This document shows positions 4,557 through 12,917 of a DNA stretch of 33,833 bases, piece after piece. The notes below the pieces were generated by a model. That model searched no databases and was not told the origin of the DNA. It was given only the letters and a program-made list of their open reading frames with translations. A program made the position numbers and the translations under genes. Source of the stretch: Verrucomicrobiota bacterium (GTDB lineage Bacteria; Verrucomicrobiota; Verrucomicrobiia; Opitutales; T3Sed10-336); NCBI GenBank assembly GCA_003565135.1, contig PXDC01000105.1, positions 1 to 33,833 on the forward strand, read 5' to 3'. Every line of letters starts with the position of its first letter. The stretch's first letter is position 1.

Positions 4557-5129
4557 ATGAAACTCCGACCTTCCGCCGTTACCGGGCTTCTCGCCCTTTC
4601 AGCGCCCCTGACCACCGTTTACGTCACTCCCGCCCACGCCGCATTCGACGCTTTTCTCAAGATCGATGGGGTCGATGGCGAGGCTACGGATGAACGGCAC
4701 CGCGATGAGATAGAAGTTTTCTCCTGGTCGTGGGGCGCCGCCAACCGTGAGGCGGTGGGCGGGACCGGCCCGGCCGTCTCGGAAATCACTGTCACCAAGC
4801 AACTGGACAAATCCTCGCCGCTCCTTTTTCTGAAAACCGCCCGCGGCGAACCGGCGGAGAAAGTCGTTCTGCGCCTCGCCGATGTCCGTTATGAGGGCGA
4901 AGCTCCCGTCTTTTACGAAATCGTCATGGAGGACGTGCTCGTGACGAGCATTGAAAGCGGCGCCCGCACGGATGACGAACGGTTGACCGAAAACATTACC
5001 CTCAATTTCAGCTCCGTCCGGTTCTCGTTTGCCAACCGCGACGACGAGGGGCGTTACATCGACCTGGAAAGAGACGAGGAACCGATCCGGGTCACGATTG
5101 ACAACCCCGAGCGGGAGCGCCCCCATTAA
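4557..5129 (+). CDS. Exported Hcp-family (type VI tube-like) protein
   Basis: A 190-residue protein with a signal peptide (residues 1-28, cleavage probably after AHA). The rest has the whole Hcp/DUF796 pattern: FDAFLKIDGVDGEATDE, then EIEVFSWSWG, ITVTKQLDKSSPLLFLKTARGE, a V-R-L strand, EIVMEDVLVTSIESG and the closing ITLNFSSVRFSF. Hcp proteins form hexameric rings that stack into the type VI secretion tube. True tube subunits lack a signal peptide, and no type VI gene lies within this window, so this is more likely a secreted ring or scaffold protein built on the same fold. It is followed after 4 bases by a diverged relative. Fold assignment is strong; function is unknown. Confidence 0.85.
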   Translation: MKLRPSAVTGLLALSAPLTTVYVTPAHAAFDAFLKIDGVDGEATDERHRDEIEVFSWSWGAANREAVGGTGPAVSEITVTKQLDKSSPLLFLKTARGEPAEKVVLRLADVRYEGEAPVFYEIVMEDVLVTSIESGARTDDERLTENITLNFSSVRFSFANRDDEGRYIDLERDEEPIRVTIDNPERERPH

Positions 5130-5133
5130 GGCG

Positions 5134-5916
5134 ATGCAAACGCGCGGGCCACTCGCCGGAATCCTGGTTGCGCTCGTGCTTCCGGGATACGCCCTGGCCG
5201 AGTCCGCCTGGGTGCGATTCGATCCGGATCTGCCCGGTGACGCCGCCGCCGAAGTCCGTTCCGGCTGGAGTGTCGTCGAGGGCTTCGGTCTGGATTCCGT
5301 GCTGGCCCAGGGACAGCCGGGGTCGTTCATACTCACACGACCGGCCGACCGCAGCACCGGCCCCCTTTCCGCGGCATTGACCGACGGCCGTACCTTCCCG
5401 CGCGTCGACATCGATATCGCTTCGGTCGGAAAGGATTCCGACGATTCACCGCGGGCTGTCCGGGTCAGACTCGAAGAGGTCGTCCTTCTCTCCCAGGGCC
5501 TCGAATGGAGAGGACCCGGCGAATCGCCGCGGGAAATGCTGGAACTGGGCTTTCGCTCCATCACCTACGCCTATTACCTCCCCGAAGCGGATGCGGGCGG
5601 AACCTTTCTTCACTTTGATTATGAGACCCTCGAGGGCGAGGCCGGCGCCTTTACCGACGAAGATCCGATCGACGGCCGCGGCGGCGACCCGGTCGCCCCC
5701 CCGTTCCAGGTCCGCCTGGACCGTTTCGACAGCGCAGCCGGCACCATGAAACTTTCCTGGGACAGCGAGGAGGGCACCGACTACACGATCGAATGGACGC
5801 CCGACCTGGTTGCTCCCTTTGAAGCGATCGAAACCATCCGGGCGGAAGATTCCGAAACGGAGTTTGAAATTCCGGTCGAGGGCCCCACCGGTTTTTACCG
5901 GATCCGGATCGATTGA
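5134..5916 (+). CDS. Exported diverged Hcp-like protein with a C-terminal module
   Basis: A 260-residue protein starting at the ATG four bases after the previous stop, with a signal peptide ending near ALA. Residues ~24-155 align by eye with the upstream Hcp-like protein: WVRFDPDLPGD for the first strand, SFILTRPADRSTGPLSAAL for the TKQLDKSSP block, RVRLEEVVLLSQ for the MEDVLVTS strand, and LELGFRSITYAYY for the closing strand. The last ~70 residues form a second, beta-rich module (MKLSWDSEEGTDYTIEWT ... FYRIRI), of a kind that ends many secreted verrucomicrobial proteins and is also seen at the end of the subtilase at 27057. Its TGA overlaps the next ATG, implying translational coupling. No function is known. 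Confidence 0.75.
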   Translation: MQTRGPLAGILVALVLPGYALAESAWVRFDPDLPGDAAAEVRSGWSVVEGFGLDSVLAQGQPGSFILTRPADRSTGPLSAALTDGRTFPRVDIDIASVGKDSDDSPRAVRVRLEEVVLLSQGLEWRGPGESPREMLELGFRSITYAYYLPEADAGGTFLHFDYETLEGEAGAFTDEDPIDGRGGDPVAPPFQVRLDRFDSAAGTMKLSWDSEEGTDYTIEWTPDLVAPFEAIETIRAEDSETEFEIPVEGPTGFYRIRID

Positions 5917-7409
5917 TGGCACCCGCGCTCTTTCGGGATCTCCCCTCATGGAGCCCAAGGGAATTCAGACGGTCACTCGCCGGGGCGGGCTTTAACGCCG
6001 AAGCGATCGACAACCTGATTCCCGGACTCGGCAGCGCTCAAAACGAACGGGCCATGACGGCTGCGCAGGCCTGCCTTGCCGGGGATGATACACCCCTCGC
6101 CACGGCCATCCGGCTGTTCCTGCTGGCCGATAACGTCCCGCTGGAACCGGTGATGAATCTCTTCGGCTGGCAGGTCACCGAACTGACCCGCCTGGGTCTG
6201 CTCAAGCAGGGAAACGGGGGTATTTGTTCCCGCGTCCGTGTCACGCCGGTCGAAGAAGACCTGGTGGCCGCCGATTTTCCCCGCCGCCAGATTGAACATC
6301 CGGATGATTTTGTCATGGGTGTCGGACCGGCCACCCGCCAGTTGGATGCGCTCACCCCCCGCCTTAAATCCGGGCGGGCACTGGAGGTCGGGTGCGGCAT
6401 CGCCTGGCTCGGCGCCCGACTGGCACGCGCCGGGGCGACCGTGACCGCATCCGACATCAATCCGCGCGCACTGGAACTCGCCGCGTTCAACGCCCGGTTA
6501 TGCGGAACCGAAGGGATCGACCTGCGCCGGGGATCCCTTTTCGAGCCGGTGGAAGGCGAAGCCCCCTTCGATATTATCGCCTGCAACCCCCCCTTTGTCC
6601 AGACTCCGGACAGCACGCTCACCTACCGCGACTCGCCCTCAGGCAACGCCTTCTGCCGCGAGCTTGTGGCCGGTCTGCCCGAGCGCCTCGCTCCGGGCGG
6701 GTTGGCCGTGGTGTTGCTCAACTGGGGGCACCGGGACGACGAGGATTGGAGCACCGCCCCCCTGTCTTGGCTTTCAGGATACGGTCTGCAGATCTGGCTG
6801 AACCGTTCCGACTGTGCCGGACCCGCCGAATACGCCTGGCGCTGGCTCCAGGGAGATCCCCGATTCGCGGAGCCACAAGCTGCCGCCGCCGCCCTCACCC
6901 GGTGGATCGGACACTTTCGCGACCGGGGAATGCGGCGCCTGAGTGCGGGATTCCTCGCCATCCGCAAGCCGGCCGATCCGGACGAGCCCGAATGGATCCG
7001 ATCCGACTCCCGCGCCACCGGGACCCTTCCCGGCACCGCCGCCCACGACCTTCAACGCATCTTCCGGAATGAATCGTGGCTGAGGCGTGCGGGCGCGGCA
7101 TCTCCTCTCATCGACTTTCGATACTGCGCCCCCGAAGGGATACGCGGCACGGTGTCCCTGGATTTTCGGTCCGGATGGCAACGGGAGTCGATTCGGCTGC
7201 AATCGCCCGGAACCCTTTCCTACGACGGACCGGTGGATGAAAACCTCATGCGTCTGCTCGACCTGGTGCGCTCCGGAAATCCCCCGCGCGCGCTGGTCGA
7301 CGAACTGGAATCGCGAGCCCCATCCGGCAAGGTACCCGGATTGACGGATCGGGTCGATTCGCTTACCCGTGAATTGTTGCGCTACGGACTGCTCGAACCT
7401 GCCCCCTGA
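5916..7409 (+). CDS. HemK/PrmC-like class I SAM methyltransferase with N-terminal accessory domain
   Basis: A 497-residue protein. Residues ~1-135 are a helical/winged region ending in a LTRLGLLKQG segment, like the accessory domain (DUF7059 type) seen on a family of actinobacterial methyltransferases. The SAM domain follows: ALEVGCGIAWLG (motif I), TASDINPRALELA (acidic loop), and IIACNPPFVQ. NPPF is the hallmark of enzymes that methylate planar amides or exocyclic amines (glutamine, adenine, guanine). The C-terminal ~170 residues are a further conserved region of uncertain role. The ATG overlaps the stop of the secreted protein upstream (TTGATGG), so the two are probably cotranscribed although one is exported and one cytoplasmic. 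The substrate (protein glutamine, RNA or DNA) cannot be told from sequence. Confidence 0.8.
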   Translation: MAPALFRDLPSWSPREFRRSLAGAGFNAEAIDNLIPGLGSAQNERAMTAAQACLAGDDTPLATAIRLFLLADNVPLEPVMNLFGWQVTELTRLGLLKQGNGGICSRVRVTPVEEDLVAADFPRRQIEHPDDFVMGVGPATRQLDALTPRLKSGRALEVGCGIAWLGARLARAGATVTASDINPRALELAAFNARLCGTEGIDLRRGSLFEPVEGEAPFDIIACNPPFVQTPDSTLTYRDSPSGNAFCRELVAGLPERLAPGGLAVVLLNWGHRDDEDWSTAPLSWLSGYGLQIWLNRSDCAGPAEYAWRWLQGDPRFAEPQAAAAALTRWIGHFRDRGMRRLSAGFLAIRKPADPDEPEWIRSDSRATGTLPGTAAHDLQRIFRNESWLRRAGAASPLIDFRYCAPEGIRGTVSLDFRSGWQRESIRLQSPGTLSYDGPVDENLMRLLDLVRSGNPPRALVDELESRAPSGKVPGLTDRVDSLTRELLRYGLLEPAP

Positions 7410-7540
7410 AGCCGCCTGGGCCGACCGGGAGACGACAAGAATCTTCAGCTCCCGGTGGCAACGCGGCGCTGGATCATCCGGCCGCCGCAATTCCTCCGTT
7501 TTTCCTTTTCACCGCCAAAGCAATCTGCCAGCGTTCGCCG

Positions 7541-7897
7541 ATGCTGAATCTTTTTGTTTACAAATGGATCCACCTGGCCGGGGTCTTCCTCGTGTTTCTC
7601 GCCTTCGGCGGGTTGCTGGTGGAACAAAAATTCAAGCTCGCCAAACAGCGTTGGGCCAGCATTTCGCACGGTGTGGGCATGTTTCTGCTGTTGCTCGGCG
7701 GGTTCGGAATGCTGGCCCGGCTGGGCATCCACTGGCCCTGGCCCGGTTGGATCGTCCTCAAGCTCGGGATCTGGATTGTCTTCGGCTTCTGGCTCGTGGT
7801 CACCCGCCGCAACTGGCTGCCGCCCGCGGTCAGCTACACGGTCCTGTTCGGCCTCGCCCTGGCGGCCACTTATTTCGCCCTCTGGAAGCCATTTTGA
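7541..7897 (+). CDS. Small four-helix integral membrane protein
   Basis: 118 residues with four predicted membrane segments: about 3-25 (YKWIHLAGVFLVFLAFGGLL), 42-62 (HGVGMFLLLLGGFGML), 66-88 (WPGWIVLKLGIWIVFGFWLV) and 95-115. The arrangement of short loops and a His-containing first helix recalls CopD/SirB-like small membrane proteins common in this phylum, but no family-defining motif is certain. It lies 131 bp after the methyltransferase. The peptidase/ATP-grasp cluster downstream has its own promoter-like sequence, so this gene may be monocistronic. Function unknown. Confidence 0.75.
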   Translation: MLNLFVYKWIHLAGVFLVFLAFGGLLVEQKFKLAKQRWASISHGVGMFLLLLGGFGMLARLGIHWPWPGWIVLKLGIWIVFGFWLVVTRRNWLPPAVSYTVLFGLALAATYFALWKPF

Positions 7898-7936
7898 TCC
7901 GCGCGGCCGGCGGCGGAAAAAACCTGCCTTACTCTC

Positions 7937-7965
7937 TTGCCCGGCGGTGCGGGCGACGTTAGGCT
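7937..7965 (+). promoter_or_regulatory. Putative promoter of the peptidase / ATP-grasp / GCS2 operon
   Basis: TTGCCC (7937-7942), exactly 17 bases, then TAGGCT (7960-7965). The expected start near 7972 leaves about 13 bases before the ATG at 7985, with no Shine-Dalgarno sequence in that leader. Confidence 0.5.
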
Positions 7966-7984
7966 CGTTCGCACAAACACCGTC

Positions 7985-8677
7985 ATGCACCTTCCGCTCG
8001 AGATGCCCGCGCAGCCGACCGAATCGACCTGCGGGCCCACTTGCCTCCACGCCATCTACCGGTTTTACGGGCGCGATTATCCCCTCGAAAAACTGATCGA
8101 AGAAATCGAAAGGGACGAGGAAGGAGGGACCGTTTCGGTACACCTCGCCCTGCATGCTCTTCGCGAGGGGTTTCGCGCCACCACCTACTCCTACAACCTG
8201 AGGATCTTCGATCCCACCTGGTGGACTCTCGAACCCGTCGAGGTTGTGGAGAAACTGGAGCGGCGCATTCCGCTCCTGGACGATGCCAAGATGATCGAAA
8301 CGCACCGGGCCTACGTGGAATTCCTCCAGGCCGGCGGCCGGCTCCGCTTTCACGATCTGACCCCGCGCCTGGTCAACCGCCTGCTGGCCAGGGGAACCCC
8401 GATCCTGACCGGACTCAGCGCCACCTACCTTTACGAAACCGTCCGCGAGCTGCCCAACGGTCAGAACGACGATGTCGCGGGGTTCCCGGTCGGGCACTTC
8501 GTGGTGGTGAACGGGTTCGAGGAGGAGAGCGACGAAATTGTCATCTCGGACCCCTACCGCGGCAATCCTTTCAACCCGCGCGGGATCTACCGCGTGGACA
8601 CCCACCGGTTCATCAACTCGGTCATGCTCGGCATCGTTACCTACGACGCGAATCTTCTCCTCATATCCCCGGCCTGA
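7985..8677 (+). CDS. C39-like papain-fold peptidase homologue
   Basis: 230 residues, cytoplasmic (no signal peptide or membrane segment). The N-terminus holds the papain-like active site: Gln10 and Cys16 in AQPTESTCGPTC. The His is in VGHFVVVNGF (His171) and the Asp in ISDPYRG (Asp189), so a Cys-His-Asp triad with oxyanion Gln appears complete. This resembles bacteriocin-processing C39 domains but with no ABC transporter attached. The frame is open further upstream (to 7937), but that stretch overlaps the promoter-like boxes, so the ATG at 7985 is preferred. It is followed by an ATP-grasp ligase and a GCS2 ligase. In published comparative genomics of amidoligases such peptidases are linked to RimK-like ligases and are thought to trim or hydrolyse the product or precursor. 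Actual substrate unknown. Confidence 0.8.
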   Translation: MHLPLEMPAQPTESTCGPTCLHAIYRFYGRDYPLEKLIEEIERDEEGGTVSVHLALHALREGFRATTYSYNLRIFDPTWWTLEPVEVVEKLERRIPLLDDAKMIETHRAYVEFLQAGGRLRFHDLTPRLVNRLLARGTPILTGLSATYLYETVRELPNGQNDDVAGFPVGHFVVVNGFEEESDEIVISDPYRGNPFNPRGIYRVDTHRFINSVMLGIVTYDANLLLISPA

Positions 8678-8686
8678 CCCGACCCC

Positions 8687-8714
8687 GAACCACCAATCAC
8701 GAACCACCAATCAC
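8687..8714 (+). repeat. Perfect 14-bp tandem repeat, two units
   Basis: GAACCACCAATCAC occurs twice head to tail (8687-8700 and 8701-8714) in the 53-bp gap between the peptidase and the ATP-grasp gene, ending 16 bases before the GTG start. A third partial unit (ACCCATCC) follows. No hairpin or Shine-Dalgarno sequence is present. Confidence 0.85.
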
Positions 8715-8730
8715 CCATCCCCAAATCCCC

Positions 8731-10215
8731 GTGAAACCCTCCCGGAATCTGATTGTCGTCGACAACCTGAACGACTGGTCGCCGGACTGGACCGGTTACC
8801 ACGTCGTTTCGGCGGAGGCCTTTTTCATCACCGATGCGTACACAACTTCCGGATACAAGATCATCAATCTTTGCCGCCACGGCCACACCCTCAGCACCGG
8901 TTACTTTATTTCGCTCCTGGCCGAAGCCCGGGGCCACCGGGTGATGGCCTCGGCCCGGACCCTGCACAACCTATCCAGCAAGCGCATTTACGCGGAGGAA
9001 CTCGATCACCTCAACGCTCTCATCCGGCGAAGCCTGGCCCGCATCACCCAGGAAGACTTCACCCTGAGCGTCTATTTCGGGCAAAACCTGGCCGAACGCC
9101 ACACACGTCTTTCCCAGCAGCTCTTTTCCCTCTTTCCCTGTCCCCTCTTCCGGGTGGAATTCACCTTCCTCCGGGGAAAGGGGTGGGATATCAGATCGTT
9201 GAAACCGCTCGGCCTGAGCGAGGTTCCGGACAACCACCTGGAGAAGGTCAAGGAGTCGATCGACACCTTTCTCAGCAAGCGTTGGAGCGCCGGGCGCAAC
9301 CGCAGCAACGCCGGTTACGACCTCGCCATCCTCCACGACCCGAAGGAAACCCATCCGCCCTCCGACGAAAAGGCGCTCCGGCAATTCGTCCGGGCCGGAC
9401 GGGCACTCGGCATGAACGTGGATCTGGTCACCCGCACGGAATACCCGAGGCTCCTTGAGTTCGACGGTCTCTTCATCCGCGAAACCACGTCCATGACCAG
9501 TCACACCTACCGTTTCGCCGTCAAGGCGCAGCGGGAGGGCATGGCGGTTATCGACGACCCCGACTCCATTCGTCGCTGCTGCAACAAGGTGTACCTGCAC
9601 GAACTGCTGCGCAAGAACCGTATCCGCACGCCCGGAACGGCGATTCTCTACCGGGGTAATGTGGACCAGTTGGCGGTCCGGCTCGGGTTCCCGCTGGTGG
9701 TCAAGATTCCCGACAGCGCCTTTTCCCTCGGGGTTTTCAAGGTCGACTCCCTCAAGGAGCTCCACAAAATCGTCCAGCGTCTCCTCAAGACCTCCGATCT
9801 CCTCCTGGCCCAGGAATTCCTCCCCACCCCTTTCGACTGGCGGGTCGGGATCCTCGCGGGCGAACCGCTCTTTGTCTGCCGCTACTACATGACCAACCAG
9901 CACTGGCAGATCTACAACCACGGCGCCGAAGGCCGGTTCGAGGAGGGCGATTTCGACGCCCTGCCCGTGAAGGACGCACCCGCGTGTGTGGTCCGGACGG
10001 CCGTCGCGGCCGCCGGATTGATCGGACGGGGCCTGTACGGTGTCGACCTCAAACAGCGGGACGGGAATATCTACGTGATCGAAGTCAACGACAACCCCAA
10101 TATCGACTCCGGCGTGGAGGATTCCTTTTTGAAGGGGGAACTCTACACCCGCATCATGCGGGAATTTCTCAAGCGTATCGAAACGATGAAACATCCCTCC
10201 CGGCCGGAACGTTAA
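8731..10215 (+). CDS. RimK-like ATP-grasp ligase with N-terminal RLAN-type domain
   Basis: 494 residues from a GTG start. Residues ~1-190 match the alpha+beta domain found ahead of RimK-like ATP-grasp modules (LIVVDNLNDWSPD, then TSGYKIINLCRHGHTLSTGYF). A middle segment (YDLAILHDPKE) leads into the ATP-grasp core: PLVVKIPDSAFSLGVFKV (nucleotide lysine and loop), LLAQEFLPTPFDWRVGIL, and the metal-binding end GVDLKQRDGN ... VIEVNDNPNIDSG. Such enzymes activate a carboxylate as acyl phosphate and join it to an amine, as RimK adds glutamate to ribosomal protein S6. The frame is open far upstream, but that part overlaps the peptidase in another frame; the GTG gives the conserved N-terminus. It lies between a peptidase and a GCS2 ligase, suggesting one pathway. 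Substrates are unknown. Confidence 0.88.
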   Translation: MKPSRNLIVVDNLNDWSPDWTGYHVVSAEAFFITDAYTTSGYKIINLCRHGHTLSTGYFISLLAEARGHRVMASARTLHNLSSKRIYAEELDHLNALIRRSLARITQEDFTLSVYFGQNLAERHTRLSQQLFSLFPCPLFRVEFTFLRGKGWDIRSLKPLGLSEVPDNHLEKVKESIDTFLSKRWSAGRNRSNAGYDLAILHDPKETHPPSDEKALRQFVRAGRALGMNVDLVTRTEYPRLLEFDGLFIRETTSMTSHTYRFAVKAQREGMAVIDDPDSIRRCCNKVYLHELLRKNRIRTPGTAILYRGNVDQLAVRLGFPLVVKIPDSAFSLGVFKVDSLKELHKIVQRLLKTSDLLLAQEFLPTPFDWRVGILAGEPLFVCRYYMTNQHWQIYNHGAEGRFEEGDFDALPVKDAPACVVRTAVAAAGLIGRGLYGVDLKQRDGNIYVIEVNDNPNIDSGVEDSFLKGELYTRIMREFLKRIETMKHPSRPER

Positions 10216-10260
10216 GGGCGGTCCGCAGGAGCTACGCCCGATCCCGAGGTCCATTCTTAC

Positions 10261-11496
10261 GTGCTTCACCTATTCGAAAAATTCGGCGTCGAGCTCGAGT
10301 ACATGATCGTCCGCCGCGACGACCACCGCGTCTCACCCATCGCCGACAAACTGATCACCGATATCTGCGGCGCCCCACTCAACGAGTGCCGGATGGGCGA
10401 CTGCGGCGTTTCCAACGAGCTCGCCGCCCACGTCATCGAGCTCAAGACGGCCGAGCCCGCAGGTGACTTTCGGGAAATGGAAGCGGAATTCGTCCGGGCC
10501 GTGGGCCGCATCAACGAAATCCTCGGGCGCCGGGACGCCCTGCTGCTGCCCGGCCCCATGCACCCGACCCTGGATCCGGCCCGGGAATCCTTCACCTGGC
10601 CCCACGAGGGGCGGGAAATCTATTCGCTTTACGACACGATTTTCAACTGTCGCGGCCACGGGTGGTTCAACCTCCAAAGCTGCCACCTCAACCTCCCCTT
10701 TACCGGCGACGAGGAGTTTGCCCGCCTTCATGCCGCCGTGATTCTCCTCCTCCCGCTCATGCCCGCCCTGACCGCCGGCAGCCCCTTCCGGGACGGACGC
10801 GTTACCGGCCTCGCCGACACGCGGCTCGAGATTTACCGACACAACCAGGACCGTTGCCCCTCCATCACCGGCCTCGTTATTCCCGAACCTGTCTTTTCCG
10901 AATCCGAATACCGGGAGAGCATCCTCGCTCCCATGTACCGGGAGATCGCCCCGCTCGACCCGCGGGGAATCCTGCGCGACGAGTGGCTCAACTCGCGCGG
11001 AGCGATCGCCCGCTTCGACCGGAGCGCGCTGGAAATCCGCCTCCTCGACGTGCAGGAATGCCCCGCCGCCGACCTCGCCCTTGCCCGGTTCTTCGTCGCC
11101 GCCCTTCGCCTTCTGACGGAACACCCCGAGCATTCCCTGAGGAAATGGGTGCTGCAGTCGCCCACCGCCGAGAGGCATCGGCAGCTTCAGCACGTCATTC
11201 GTGAAGGAATGAAGGCGCCGCTTCTCCTCCCGGAACTCCGCGCCGCTTTCGGGCTCCCGGCTTCCGTCACCTGCGCCGGGGCATTCTGGCGACATCTTTT
11301 CCGTTCCGGGGATCTCCCCGAACTTCCGGACGACGCCCGGGCCGTCGTTGCCCGCATCCTGCGCCACGGCAACCTCAGCACCCGCCTCCTCGCCGCTTAT
11401 CGCCGCTCCCGCCATCCCCGGGAATTTCGGCCCCTGACCGAGGCTCTCGCCGCCTGTCTGGCGGAAAACCGGCTCTTCCAAGCCCCCCGGGACTGA
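10261..11496 (+). CDS. GCS2-type glutamate-cysteine ligase family carboxylate-amine ligase
   Basis: 411 residues from a GTG start, 45 bases after the ATP-grasp gene. It opens with the GCS2 signature FEKFGVELEYMIV and continues with NELAAHVIELKTAEP, LLLPGPMHPTLDP, CHLNLPF, ALTAGSPFRDGRVTGLADTR and ALEIRLLDVQECP, covering the glutamine-synthetase-like fold of the family. Members ligate the gamma- or alpha-carboxylate of an amino acid to an amine, the best known reaction being gamma-glutamylcysteine synthesis. Nothing in the neighbourhood (no gshB, no egt genes) argues for glutathione or ergothioneine. Together with the ATP-grasp ligase it could make a small peptide-like metabolite or a peptide tag. 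Placing the start at the GTG is supported by the family N-terminus lying immediately behind it. Confidence 0.87.
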   Translation: MLHLFEKFGVELEYMIVRRDDHRVSPIADKLITDICGAPLNECRMGDCGVSNELAAHVIELKTAEPAGDFREMEAEFVRAVGRINEILGRRDALLLPGPMHPTLDPARESFTWPHEGREIYSLYDTIFNCRGHGWFNLQSCHLNLPFTGDEEFARLHAAVILLLPLMPALTAGSPFRDGRVTGLADTRLEIYRHNQDRCPSITGLVIPEPVFSESEYRESILAPMYREIAPLDPRGILRDEWLNSRGAIARFDRSALEIRLLDVQECPAADLALARFFVAALRLLTEHPEHSLRKWVLQSPTAERHRQLQHVIREGMKAPLLLPELRAAFGLPASVTCAGAFWRHLFRSGDLPELPDDARAVVARILRHGNLSTRLLAAYRRSRHPREFRPLTEALAACLAENRLFQAPRD

Positions 11497-11569
11497 GCCG
11501 CATGGCAACCGAACGGCCCGGATTGTTCCGGACGGAAGCGGGCGCGCCGCCGCTTTATCGGGTTTCCCG

Positions 11570-11597
11570 TTGACGGATCCGGCAAACAAATTACCGT
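11570..11597 (+). promoter_or_regulatory. Putative hflX promoter
   Basis: TTGACG (11570-11575), 16 bases, TACCGT (11592-11597); the predicted start leaves a leader of about 12 bases before the ATG at 11616. Confidence 0.45.
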
Positions 11598-11615
11598 AAG
11601 TCACACAAATACTGA

Positions 11616-12917
11616 ATGTTTGAGGTCAAAGAAAAACCCCGGCAGGTGGAAAATGCGTTGTTGATCGGAATCCAACGCCCCGGCATGGAACCGGGGGAAG
11701 GCGATCACCTTCTGGCCGAGCTCAATGACCTGGTCGAAACACTCGGAATCGAAATCCACGATCGGCGCACCGTCAGCCTGCGGGATCCGAATCCGCACTA
11801 CCTGATCGGCAAAGGCAACGCGACCGAAATCATGGAAAAGGTCAAAGCCGAGAAAATCGAGCTGATCGTGTTCGACGACGACCTCTCCCCCGCCCAACAG
11901 CGAAACTGGGAGCGTGAATCCGGCGTCTGCGTCATCGACCGCCAGGAGATTATCCTCGATATTTTCGGGCAGCGCGCCACCACCCGCGAGGCCAAGCTCC
12001 AGGTCACCCTTGCCCAGCTCAACTACTCGCTTCCCCGCCTGAAACGGGCATGGACTCACCTCCACCGCCAGCGCGGGGGAGGCACGCTCATGCGGGGCCA
12101 GGGGGAGACACAGCTCGAAGCCGACCGCCGCATGGTCCAGGACCGCATTTCACGGGTGCGAAAGGACCTGGCGGGCGTGCTCAAGCAACGGGGCGTGCAG
12201 CGGAAAAAACGCTTGAAGAAACCCGTGCCCACCGCCGCTATCGTGGGCTACACCAACGCGGGCAAATCGTCCCTGCTCAACGCCCTGACCGGCGCCTCCG
12301 TTCTGGCCGAAGACAAACTCTTCGCCACCCTGGACCCGACCACGCGGCAGTGCCAGCTGCCCACCGGGCAAAAACTCCTTCTCTCGGACACCGTCGGTTT
12401 CCTCCGCCGCCTTCCCCACGACCTGGTCGACGCCTTCCGCGCCACCCTGGAGGAAGCCGTTGTATCCGATTTCCTGATCCATGTGCTCGACCTGACCAAC
12501 CCGGAGGTGGAGCGCCATCACGCCACCACCATGGAGGTCCTCACCAGTCTCGGCGCCCACGAAAAGCGCATCATCACCGTGTTCAACAAGGTCGACCTGT
12601 GCGACGGCAACGATCTGAGGTTGCACTCGCTGCGGTTGCAGGCACCCAATCCGGTTTTTGTCAGCGCCCATTCCGGCAAGGGGATGGATACCCTGCTCGA
12701 AAAATGCGCCGACATGATCGCGGACGAAGTCATCGAGCTCGATCTCCTGGTTCCCCACGACCGGTACGACCTGATCAATAAACTGCACACCGTCGACTGT
12801 ATCCGCGAAAAACAAACCGCGCCGGAAGGCATACACCTGCAGTGCCTCCTGCCGGTCCAATTGCGCAAAGAGGTGGAGGCCTTTATTGTCAACGGTCACT
12901 CCGCCCTCGCCGTTTAA
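11616..12917 (+). CDS. hflX: Ribosome-associated GTPase HflX
   Basis: 433 residues, the usual HflX length. The N-terminal glycine-rich HflX domain contains the HYLIGKGNATEI segment, FDDDLSPAQQRN and the signature QLNYSLPRLKRAWTHLHRQ followed by MRGQGETQLEADRR. The G domain follows: GYTNAGKSSLLNAL (G1, about 211), DTVGFLRRLPHDLV (G3) and NKVD (G4, about 324). HflX binds the 50S subunit and splits stalled 70S ribosomes during heat or antibiotic stress. The start is the only sensible ATG and has a promoter-like sequence just upstream. It is followed 38 bases later by a small membrane protein gene, possibly cotranscribed. Confidence 0.97.
   Translation: MFEVKEKPRQVENALLIGIQRPGMEPGEGDHLLAELNDLVETLGIEIHDRRTVSLRDPNPHYLIGKGNATEIMEKVKAEKIELIVFDDDLSPAQQRNWERESGVCVIDRQEIILDIFGQRATTREAKLQVTLAQLNYSLPRLKRAWTHLHRQRGGGTLMRGQGETQLEADRRMVQDRISRVRKDLAGVLKQRGVQRKKRLKKPVPTAAIVGYTNAGKSSLLNALTGASVLAEDKLFATLDPTTRQCQLPTGQKLLLSDTVGFLRRLPHDLVDAFRATLEEAVVSDFLIHVLDLTNPEVERHHATTMEVLTSLGAHEKRIITVFNKVDLCDGNDLRLHSLRLQAPNPVFVSAHSGKGMDTLLEKCADMIADEVIELDLLVPHDRYDLINKLHTVDCIREKQTAPEGIHLQCLLPVQLRKEVEAFIVNGHSALAV

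Follow-up and report, generated by a model that had tools for sequence, protein, structure and literature searches.

The window analysed here is a stretch of 33,833 nucleotides of a Verrucomicrobiota genome (contig PXDC01000105.1), in which three co-oriented genes occupy positions 7985-11496 of the plus strand. The first encodes a C39/papain-like cysteine enzyme of 230 amino acids (7985..8677; Pfam Peptidase_C39 2e-10 and Peptidase_C39_2 2e-10). It is followed by an RLAN domain fused to a RimK-like ATP-grasp amide ligase (8731..10215; 494 amino acids, GTG start) and by a GCS2-fold carboxylate-amine ligase of a distinct subfamily (10261..11496; 411 amino acids, GTG start; Pfam GCS2 1e-28). A cassette of these three genes in one orientation had been described in the initial annotation, and Pfam confirmed the C39-like, RLAN-RimK and GCS2 assignments. 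The beginning of the cassette had been set at 7937, where the open frame has its first TTG; the start codon conserved for the C39 gene is the ATG at 7985.

The C39-RLAN and RLAN-GCS2 gaps measure 53 and 45 bases, and such short distances make it likely that the trio lies on one shared transcript. The promoter-like sequence formerly assigned to all three genes is unsupported, as a scan of 7300-11700 found no sigma-70 promoter common to the trio and its single sigma-70-like match falls within the GCS2 gene and is on the minus strand. A perfect 14-base tandem repeat (8687..8714, plus strand) was found within the C39-RLAN gap. The trio is flanked by a SirB-like membrane gene upstream and by hflX downstream, which bears out that no glutathione, ergothioneine or export gene adjoins it. 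In all three genes, substitutions fall mostly at third codon positions; these codon-position counts were the usable measure, YN00 dN/dS being mostly unusable, probably because synonymous sites are saturated.

The C39-like protein carries a complete triad, as had been claimed: Cys16, His171 and Asp189, together with the oxyanion Gln10, are invariant in an alignment of 59 C39 relatives. Its AlphaFold model (pLDDT 94) was aligned by VIA-align with a C39 peptidase at Z 17.9 and with the acyl-enzyme of the phytochelatin synthase Alr0975 at Z 17.3 over 160 residues, while Pfam gave no phytochelatin-synthase match in the protein. The fold and the Gln/Cys/His/Asp set are those that define C39 leader peptidases. 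Leader peptidases also go with an ABC exporter and a GG-leader precursor; here the protein is single-domain, with no ABC-transporter domain, no fused or adjacent exporter and no conserved precursor ORF. Since phytochelatin synthase fits the model as well as C39 leader peptidases do, the enzyme may transfer amides and not just cleave them; by the same token, the model does not favour transfer over cutting. Of the earlier view of an amide-cleaving C39 enzyme, the C39/papain fold therefore stands, and cleavage itself is not secured because an acyl-transferring enzyme fits the model equally.

In the second protein, the RLAN domain is N-terminal to the ATP-grasp domain, and both were detected above the Pfam cut-off (RLAN 3e-38, RimK 2e-8). 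The ATP/Mg residues K286, K325, D439, E451 and N453 are invariant among 59 aligned RLAN relatives, and the ATP-grasp region can be aligned with LysX 3vpd. Residues 196-488 of the model matched LysX, ArgX and RimK at Z 27-29 and the ATP-grasp part matched glutathione synthetase at Z 22.3; among the matches listed, all lie within residues 188-494 only. The protein scored 50 bits against the 143 bits of the RimK family model TIGR00768.

The GCS2 protein shows invariant E11, E13, E53 and E60 across an alignment of 43 GCS2 relatives. It falls below the curated NCBIfam cut-offs for glutamate-cysteine ligases (42 of 176.4 bits for TIGR02050, 28.9 of 249 for TIGR02048), and all 43 members are far short of every such cut-off. 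Grouping with proven gamma-glutamylcysteine synthetases had been named beforehand as a result that would refute the proposed pathway; the protein lies outside the known glutamate-cysteine ligase families. No match to the glutathione-synthetase ATP-grasp family GSH-S_ATP was found in the source genome, which is 82% complete. A glutathione operon was rejected on these two grounds. Another trio genome (G236) also carries a strong GSH-S_ATP gene.

Co-occurrence was studied in a sample of 289 Verrucomicrobiota genomes, 37 of which contain RLAN. The GCS2 subfamily is present in 10 of the 289, and the RLAN and C39 genes adjoin it in 10/10; the C39 subfamily is present in 12, and 12/12 hold RLAN. This nested pattern has hypergeometric probabilities of 4e-10 for the GCS2 subfamily and 3e-12 for the C39 subfamily in RLAN genomes. 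In a GTDB scan, at least 545 candidate stretches encode an RLAN-RimK relative, and the C39-RLAN-GCS2 order recurs in about 16 phyla. Rare adjacency in relatives, which the initial annotation had seen as a refutation, is thus not what was found. Across relatives, the median gaps of the trio are 4 and -2 bases, and the nearest relatives retain the trio while their flanking genes vary. What is kept as a unit is a pair of ATP-dependent amide ligases that differ in fold, plus a C39/papain-fold enzyme, and the active site of each is conserved. As a recurrent fifth gene, DUF155/RMND1 was considered; it lies directly upstream in three loci (L029, L036 and L086), too few lineages for a module member.

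A fourth enzyme of the pathway, absent from the earlier picture, is the N-formylglutamate-amidohydrolase-like hydrolase FGase. Its gene comes after GCS2 at roughly half of the trio loci, an adjacent copy being absent from 28 of 60; the GTDB scan gave 33 loci with FGase behind GCS2. All four genes are present in Pontibacter roseus DSM 17521 (L069). The source locus is without a downstream FGase, hflX following GCS2, and the enzyme is dispersed in the source genome: one copy is found on C352 and another on C382, the latter behind a second GCS2 that is 58% identical to that of the trio. Strong FGase matches occurred in 6 genomes of the Verrucomicrobiota sample, all of them trio carriers, including two with unlinked copies (G000 and G071). 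FGase-like genes were also present in two family members without RLAN (G005 and G007).

The alternative partner set of RLAN comprises an acetyltransferase, to which a C39-like domain is fused in some cases. The best score of this acetyltransferase against curated models is to RimI, a protein N-acetyltransferase, and one locus (L157) encodes an ATP-grasp domain fused to a RimI-like acetyltransferase. About 11% of RLAN loci lack a recognised partner, from which it follows that RLAN-RimK alone must do something useful. Nine relatives were found on viral contigs, none with C39 or GCS2.

The reading preferred here, at a probability of about 0.45, is that the locus represents a conserved pathway of the cytosol for the synthesis and turnover of a peptide-like metabolite that contains glutamyl residues and is made without the ribosome. 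GCS2 would join glutamate or a similar side-chain carboxylate to an amine. Like RimK, LysX and glutathione synthetase, RLAN-RimK would convert a carboxylate to an acyl-phosphate and attach another amino acid, and the C39 protein would form an acyl-enzyme before cutting or transferring the product, in the manner of phytochelatin synthase acting on glutathione. FGase would remove a C-terminal glutamate-type residue. The overall scheme would resemble glutathione synthesis plus phytochelatin synthase, a thiol not being implied. Nested co-occurrence, an order held in about 16 phyla, FGase linkage, the fold matches, the lack of a precursor ORF and the third-position bias of substitutions count for such a metabolite pathway; the equal fit of leader peptidases to the C39 model, the RimI-like alternative partner, the partnerless RLAN loci and the FGase-like genes in genomes without RLAN count against it. 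The earlier core reading, one uncharacterised amide-bond pathway other than glutathione, survived the adjacency and GCS2-family tests.

Several known systems are related in composition. The 2009 work of Iyer et al. (doi 10.1039/b917682a) is said to have predicted amidoligase linkages in which ATP-grasp, COOH-NH2 ligase/GCS2-fold and acetyltransferase genes stand with peptidases. The module is like these linkages, as they are described, in joining ATP-grasp, GCS2, acetyltransferase and peptidase-type genes. It is a further case of this known, uncharacterised kind of linkage, for which we know of no established product. That work is cited for DUF3335-GNAT fusions (PMC10318531) and for linked ligases (PMC4431377). 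Glutathione synthesis (a GCS2-type GshA and an ATP-grasp GshB) together with phytochelatin synthase uses an identical trio of folds; however, the ATP-grasp of the module is nearer to RimK/LysX and has an added RLAN domain, and the module's GCS2, unlike GshA, is below all glutamate-cysteine ligase cut-offs. In N-acetylglutaminylglutamine synthetase (TIGR03103), a GNAT is linked or fused to an ATP-grasp, as in the alternative partner set of RLAN, but the ATP-grasp is different and the fused GNAT-C39 protein matches TIGR03103 weakly, through its GNAT part only (28 of 569 bits). In butirosin biosynthesis, the ATP-grasp protein BtrJ is paired with the C39-related acyltransferase BtrH, which transfers a gamma-glutamyl-type acyl group. 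This pair of an ATP-grasp and a C39-related protein is like the module by description, BtrH_N being presented as a close relative of C39 in PMC10318531; unlike butirosin, the locus has no acyl-carrier protein or aminoglycoside genes.

RimK adds glutamates to the C terminus of ribosomal protein S6. Reversible protein tagging, in which RLAN-RimK would extend a protein C terminus, probably with glutamates, GCS2 or the acetyltransferase would cap it and C39 and FGase would remove the tag, is a rather unlikely rival. The ATP-grasp part fits RimK and LysX/ArgX, enzymes whose substrates are glutamates carried on proteins, one ATP-grasp is fused to a RimI-like acetyltransferase, two hydrolases would suit tag removal, and a protein target is favoured because the RimI-like partner family acts on proteins. 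However, no target-protein gene or small carrier ORF is conserved in the neighbourhood, and the GCS2 enzymes of established function known to us use free amino acids and amines; the peptide tag that had been offered as an alternative found no direct support. A glutathione-type thiol pathway, with GCS2 making gamma-Glu-Cys, the ATP-grasp adding a third residue and C39 serving as a phytochelatin-synthase-like transpeptidase, is quite improbable. Its fold types equal those of GshA, GshB and phytochelatin synthase and the source genome has no GSH-S_ATP match, but the GCS2 scores, the strong GSH-S_ATP gene of one trio genome and the lack of a recurrent cysteine-supply or metal-resistance gene nearby speak against it.

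Graspetide loci can combine a C39 double-glycine peptidase with an ATP-grasp enzyme (PMC8939145), and a graspetide-like ribosomal peptide cluster would have C39 cutting a leader and the ATP-grasp making side-chain links. This is very improbable: beyond near-identical relatives, no conserved precursor or carrier ORF of 18-90 codons was found beside the module, the C39 protein is without an ABC transporter, module genes overlap or nearly touch and GCS2 plays no part in graspetides. That three housekeeping enzymes without a common pathway are neighbours by chance is of negligible probability, and was refuted by the co-occurrence data; solely the alternative partner sets of RLAN would suit it, against the order and adjacency described above and a trio that stays as its flanks change.

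Within the metabolite reading, a bolder version is doubtful: a new, widely distributed bacterial pathway to a glutamyl-peptide that serves as cofactor or osmolyte, running parallel to that of glutathione, with an RLAN-type ATP-grasp, a separate GCS2 branch, an amidotransferase of C39 fold in the place of phytochelatin synthase and a hydrolase dedicated to turnover. Literature searches that paired ATP-grasp with GCS2 and RimK with FGase, or that concerned RLAN or DUF3335, found no functional study, and a strictly co-inherited pathway of three to four enzymes so widespread and without a known product leaves a considerable gap in the picture of bacterial metabolism. The C39-GCS2 form found in about 16 phyla includes cultivable Bacteroidota, and the paralogous GCS2-FGase pair of the source genome provides a natural comparison.

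The C39-like cysteine enzyme gene (7985-8677, +), the RLAN-RimK ATP-grasp ligase gene (8731-10215, +) and the GCS2 carboxylate-amine ligase gene (10261-11496, +) follow one another on the same strand, as initially annotated. A start at 7937 had been proposed; the TTG there is not the conserved start, and the C39-like gene was placed from 7985. A common promoter had also been suggested, and a simple promoter scan found none upstream of the trio. Upstream lie a PrmC/HemK-like methyltransferase gene between DUF7059 and DUF7782 domains (5913-7409) and a SirB-like membrane gene (7541-7897; score below the Pfam cut-off). Two successive genes with Hcp-type (T6SS_HCP) domains were observed at 4557-5916, the first starting with a signal-peptide-like stretch. 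The C39-RLAN gap contains a perfect 14-base tandem repeat (8687-8714; GAACCACCAATCAC), whose unit also occurs singly at two sites outside this contig in the same genome (4.2 Mb, 82% complete).

The linkage of the trio is real. Scanning GTDB genomes with the RLAN alignment gave at least 545 confirmed relatives, of which the best 80 loci were read, a set biased because these are the most similar ones. Together with the phylum sample, 289 evenly drawn Verrucomicrobiota genomes, 119 distinct RLAN loci were compared. Both C39 and GCS2 adjoin RLAN in 60, and an N-formylglutamate-amidohydrolase-like gene (FGase) is adjacent as well in 32 of these; a GNAT-C39 fusion lies near RLAN in 23, a GNAT acetyltransferase gene in 14, and no partner was recognised in 13. 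In the phylum sample, RLAN occurs in 37 genomes and, counting strong matches only, the C39 subfamily in 12 and the GCS2 subfamily in 10. All 12 of the former carry RLAN and, in line with the association first proposed, GCS2 sits beside RLAN and C39 in all 10 of the latter; the chance probabilities of such nesting (~3e-12 for C39, ~4e-10 for GCS2) are both too small because of shared ancestry. Median gaps are 4 bases (C39 to RLAN) and -2 bases (RLAN to GCS2). The trio is kept while its flanks vary between the window, its nearest relative in the genus, G001 (RNase R upstream), G002 and G003 (beta-galactosidase upstream). In G002, ~950 bases of extra DNA separate RLAN from GCS2 (L017, 3723-4671), and two ORFs tested there had no Pfam match. 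The RLAN gene of G147 (L164) is in fragments with an internal stop.

The C39 triad, described earlier as complete, is invariant across 59 aligned relatives (Cys16, His171, Asp189), as is Gln10. In the same way, Lys286, Lys325, Asp439, Glu451 and Asn453 of the RLAN-RimK ATP-grasp part (59 relatives) and the acidic Glu11, Glu13, Glu53 and Glu60 of GCS2 (43 relatives) are invariant. Metal and substrate binding by such residues is established for these folds and would be expected here. Third codon positions carry most changes in all three genes across the window, G001, G002 and G003.

The C39 model (pLDDT 94) matches the C39 leader peptidase 6mpz (Z 17.9, 133 residues, 1.8 A) and the acyl-enzyme of the phytochelatin synthase Alr0975, 2bu3 (Z 17.3, 160 residues, 2.4 A). 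These model-based matches are tied, and the predicted fold therefore permits cutting or transfer; the amide-cleaving role first assigned is allowed, with transfer equally so. CtaG, an amide-forming C39 homologue, and AziU2-U3 appeared in the Foldseek list with weaker scores. Residues 196-488 of the RLAN-RimK model match LysX, ArgX and RimK (Z 27-29), the RLAN domain (about 1-190) being outside the matched part.

FGase was found directly 3' of GCS2 in 33 loci; in the window, hflX takes the place it has in many relatives. The window's genome carries on contig C382 (L020, 7001-8968) a second GCS2, 58% identical and directly followed by FGase, with neither RLAN nor C39 beside it, and a further FGase on C352. 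Strong FGase matches (>250 bits, a score gap partly built in because the alignment included some of these sequences) occur in six phylum-sample genomes, all trio carriers, and are unlinked in two. A more distantly related FGase is present in G005 and G007, which lack RLAN.

The best supported reading is a cytosolic pathway of GCS2, RLAN-RimK, C39 and FGase, whose folds, active sites and co-inheritance are observed and whose substrates, order and product are putative. GCS2 would form a gamma-glutamyl-type amide, RLAN-RimK would add a further residue via an acyl-phosphate, C39 would form an acyl-enzyme before cutting or transfer, and FGase would take off a glutamate-type residue. A glutathione pathway was rejected, since all 43 GCS2 members fall well under curated cut-offs, against the grouping with proven gamma-glutamylcysteine synthetases that would have refuted the first interpretation; YbdK and plant glutamate-cysteine ligases were reached by the GCS2 profile at E ~0.0025 only. 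GSH-S_ATP had no match in the window's genome (18% of which is missing) and a strong one in 1 of 13 trio genomes (G236). The main rival to the cytosolic pathway is protein tagging, for which the kinship to RimK and a RimI-like acetyltransferase partner argue. The ORFs beside the module gave no conserved candidate for a precursor or carrier peptide.

A 2009 amidoligase study reportedly predicted linkage of amidoligases with peptidases, and no functional study of such linked genes was found in the literature searched; the window locus belongs to this already predicted, uncharacterised kind of linkage. New here are the nesting put in numbers and an FGase association that persists even where the genes lie apart, together with a second locus for GCS2-FGase and a predicted phytochelatin-synthase-like fold of the C39 enzyme.

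When GCS2 is lacking, RLAN is often paired with a GNAT acetyltransferase (closest curated model, RimI). This partner stands by itself, is joined to a C39-like DUF3335 domain, or forms a single protein with RLAN. DUF3335-GNAT fusions were noted in PMC10318531, which cites the 2009 paper for them. Across these alternating partner sets RLAN-RimK is the hub, accompanied by a second acylating enzyme and often also by a C39-like one; both sets may represent one chemistry with different caps. A DUF155/RMND1-family gene lies directly 5' of modules of both types (L086 8446-9243, L029 8099-8884, L036 8012-8854). In Pelagicoccus, a RimK-type ATP-grasp gene (L024 6156-7373, L025 6031-7374) is located ~2 kb upstream of C39-RLAN-GCS2-FGase, and a domain scan of L024 found TrkA_C on it. 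Finally, in IMG/VR viral contigs (L176-L178, L180), GNAT is directly 5' of an RLAN-less ATP-grasp gene whose product is kin of the window protein (~34-39% identical).
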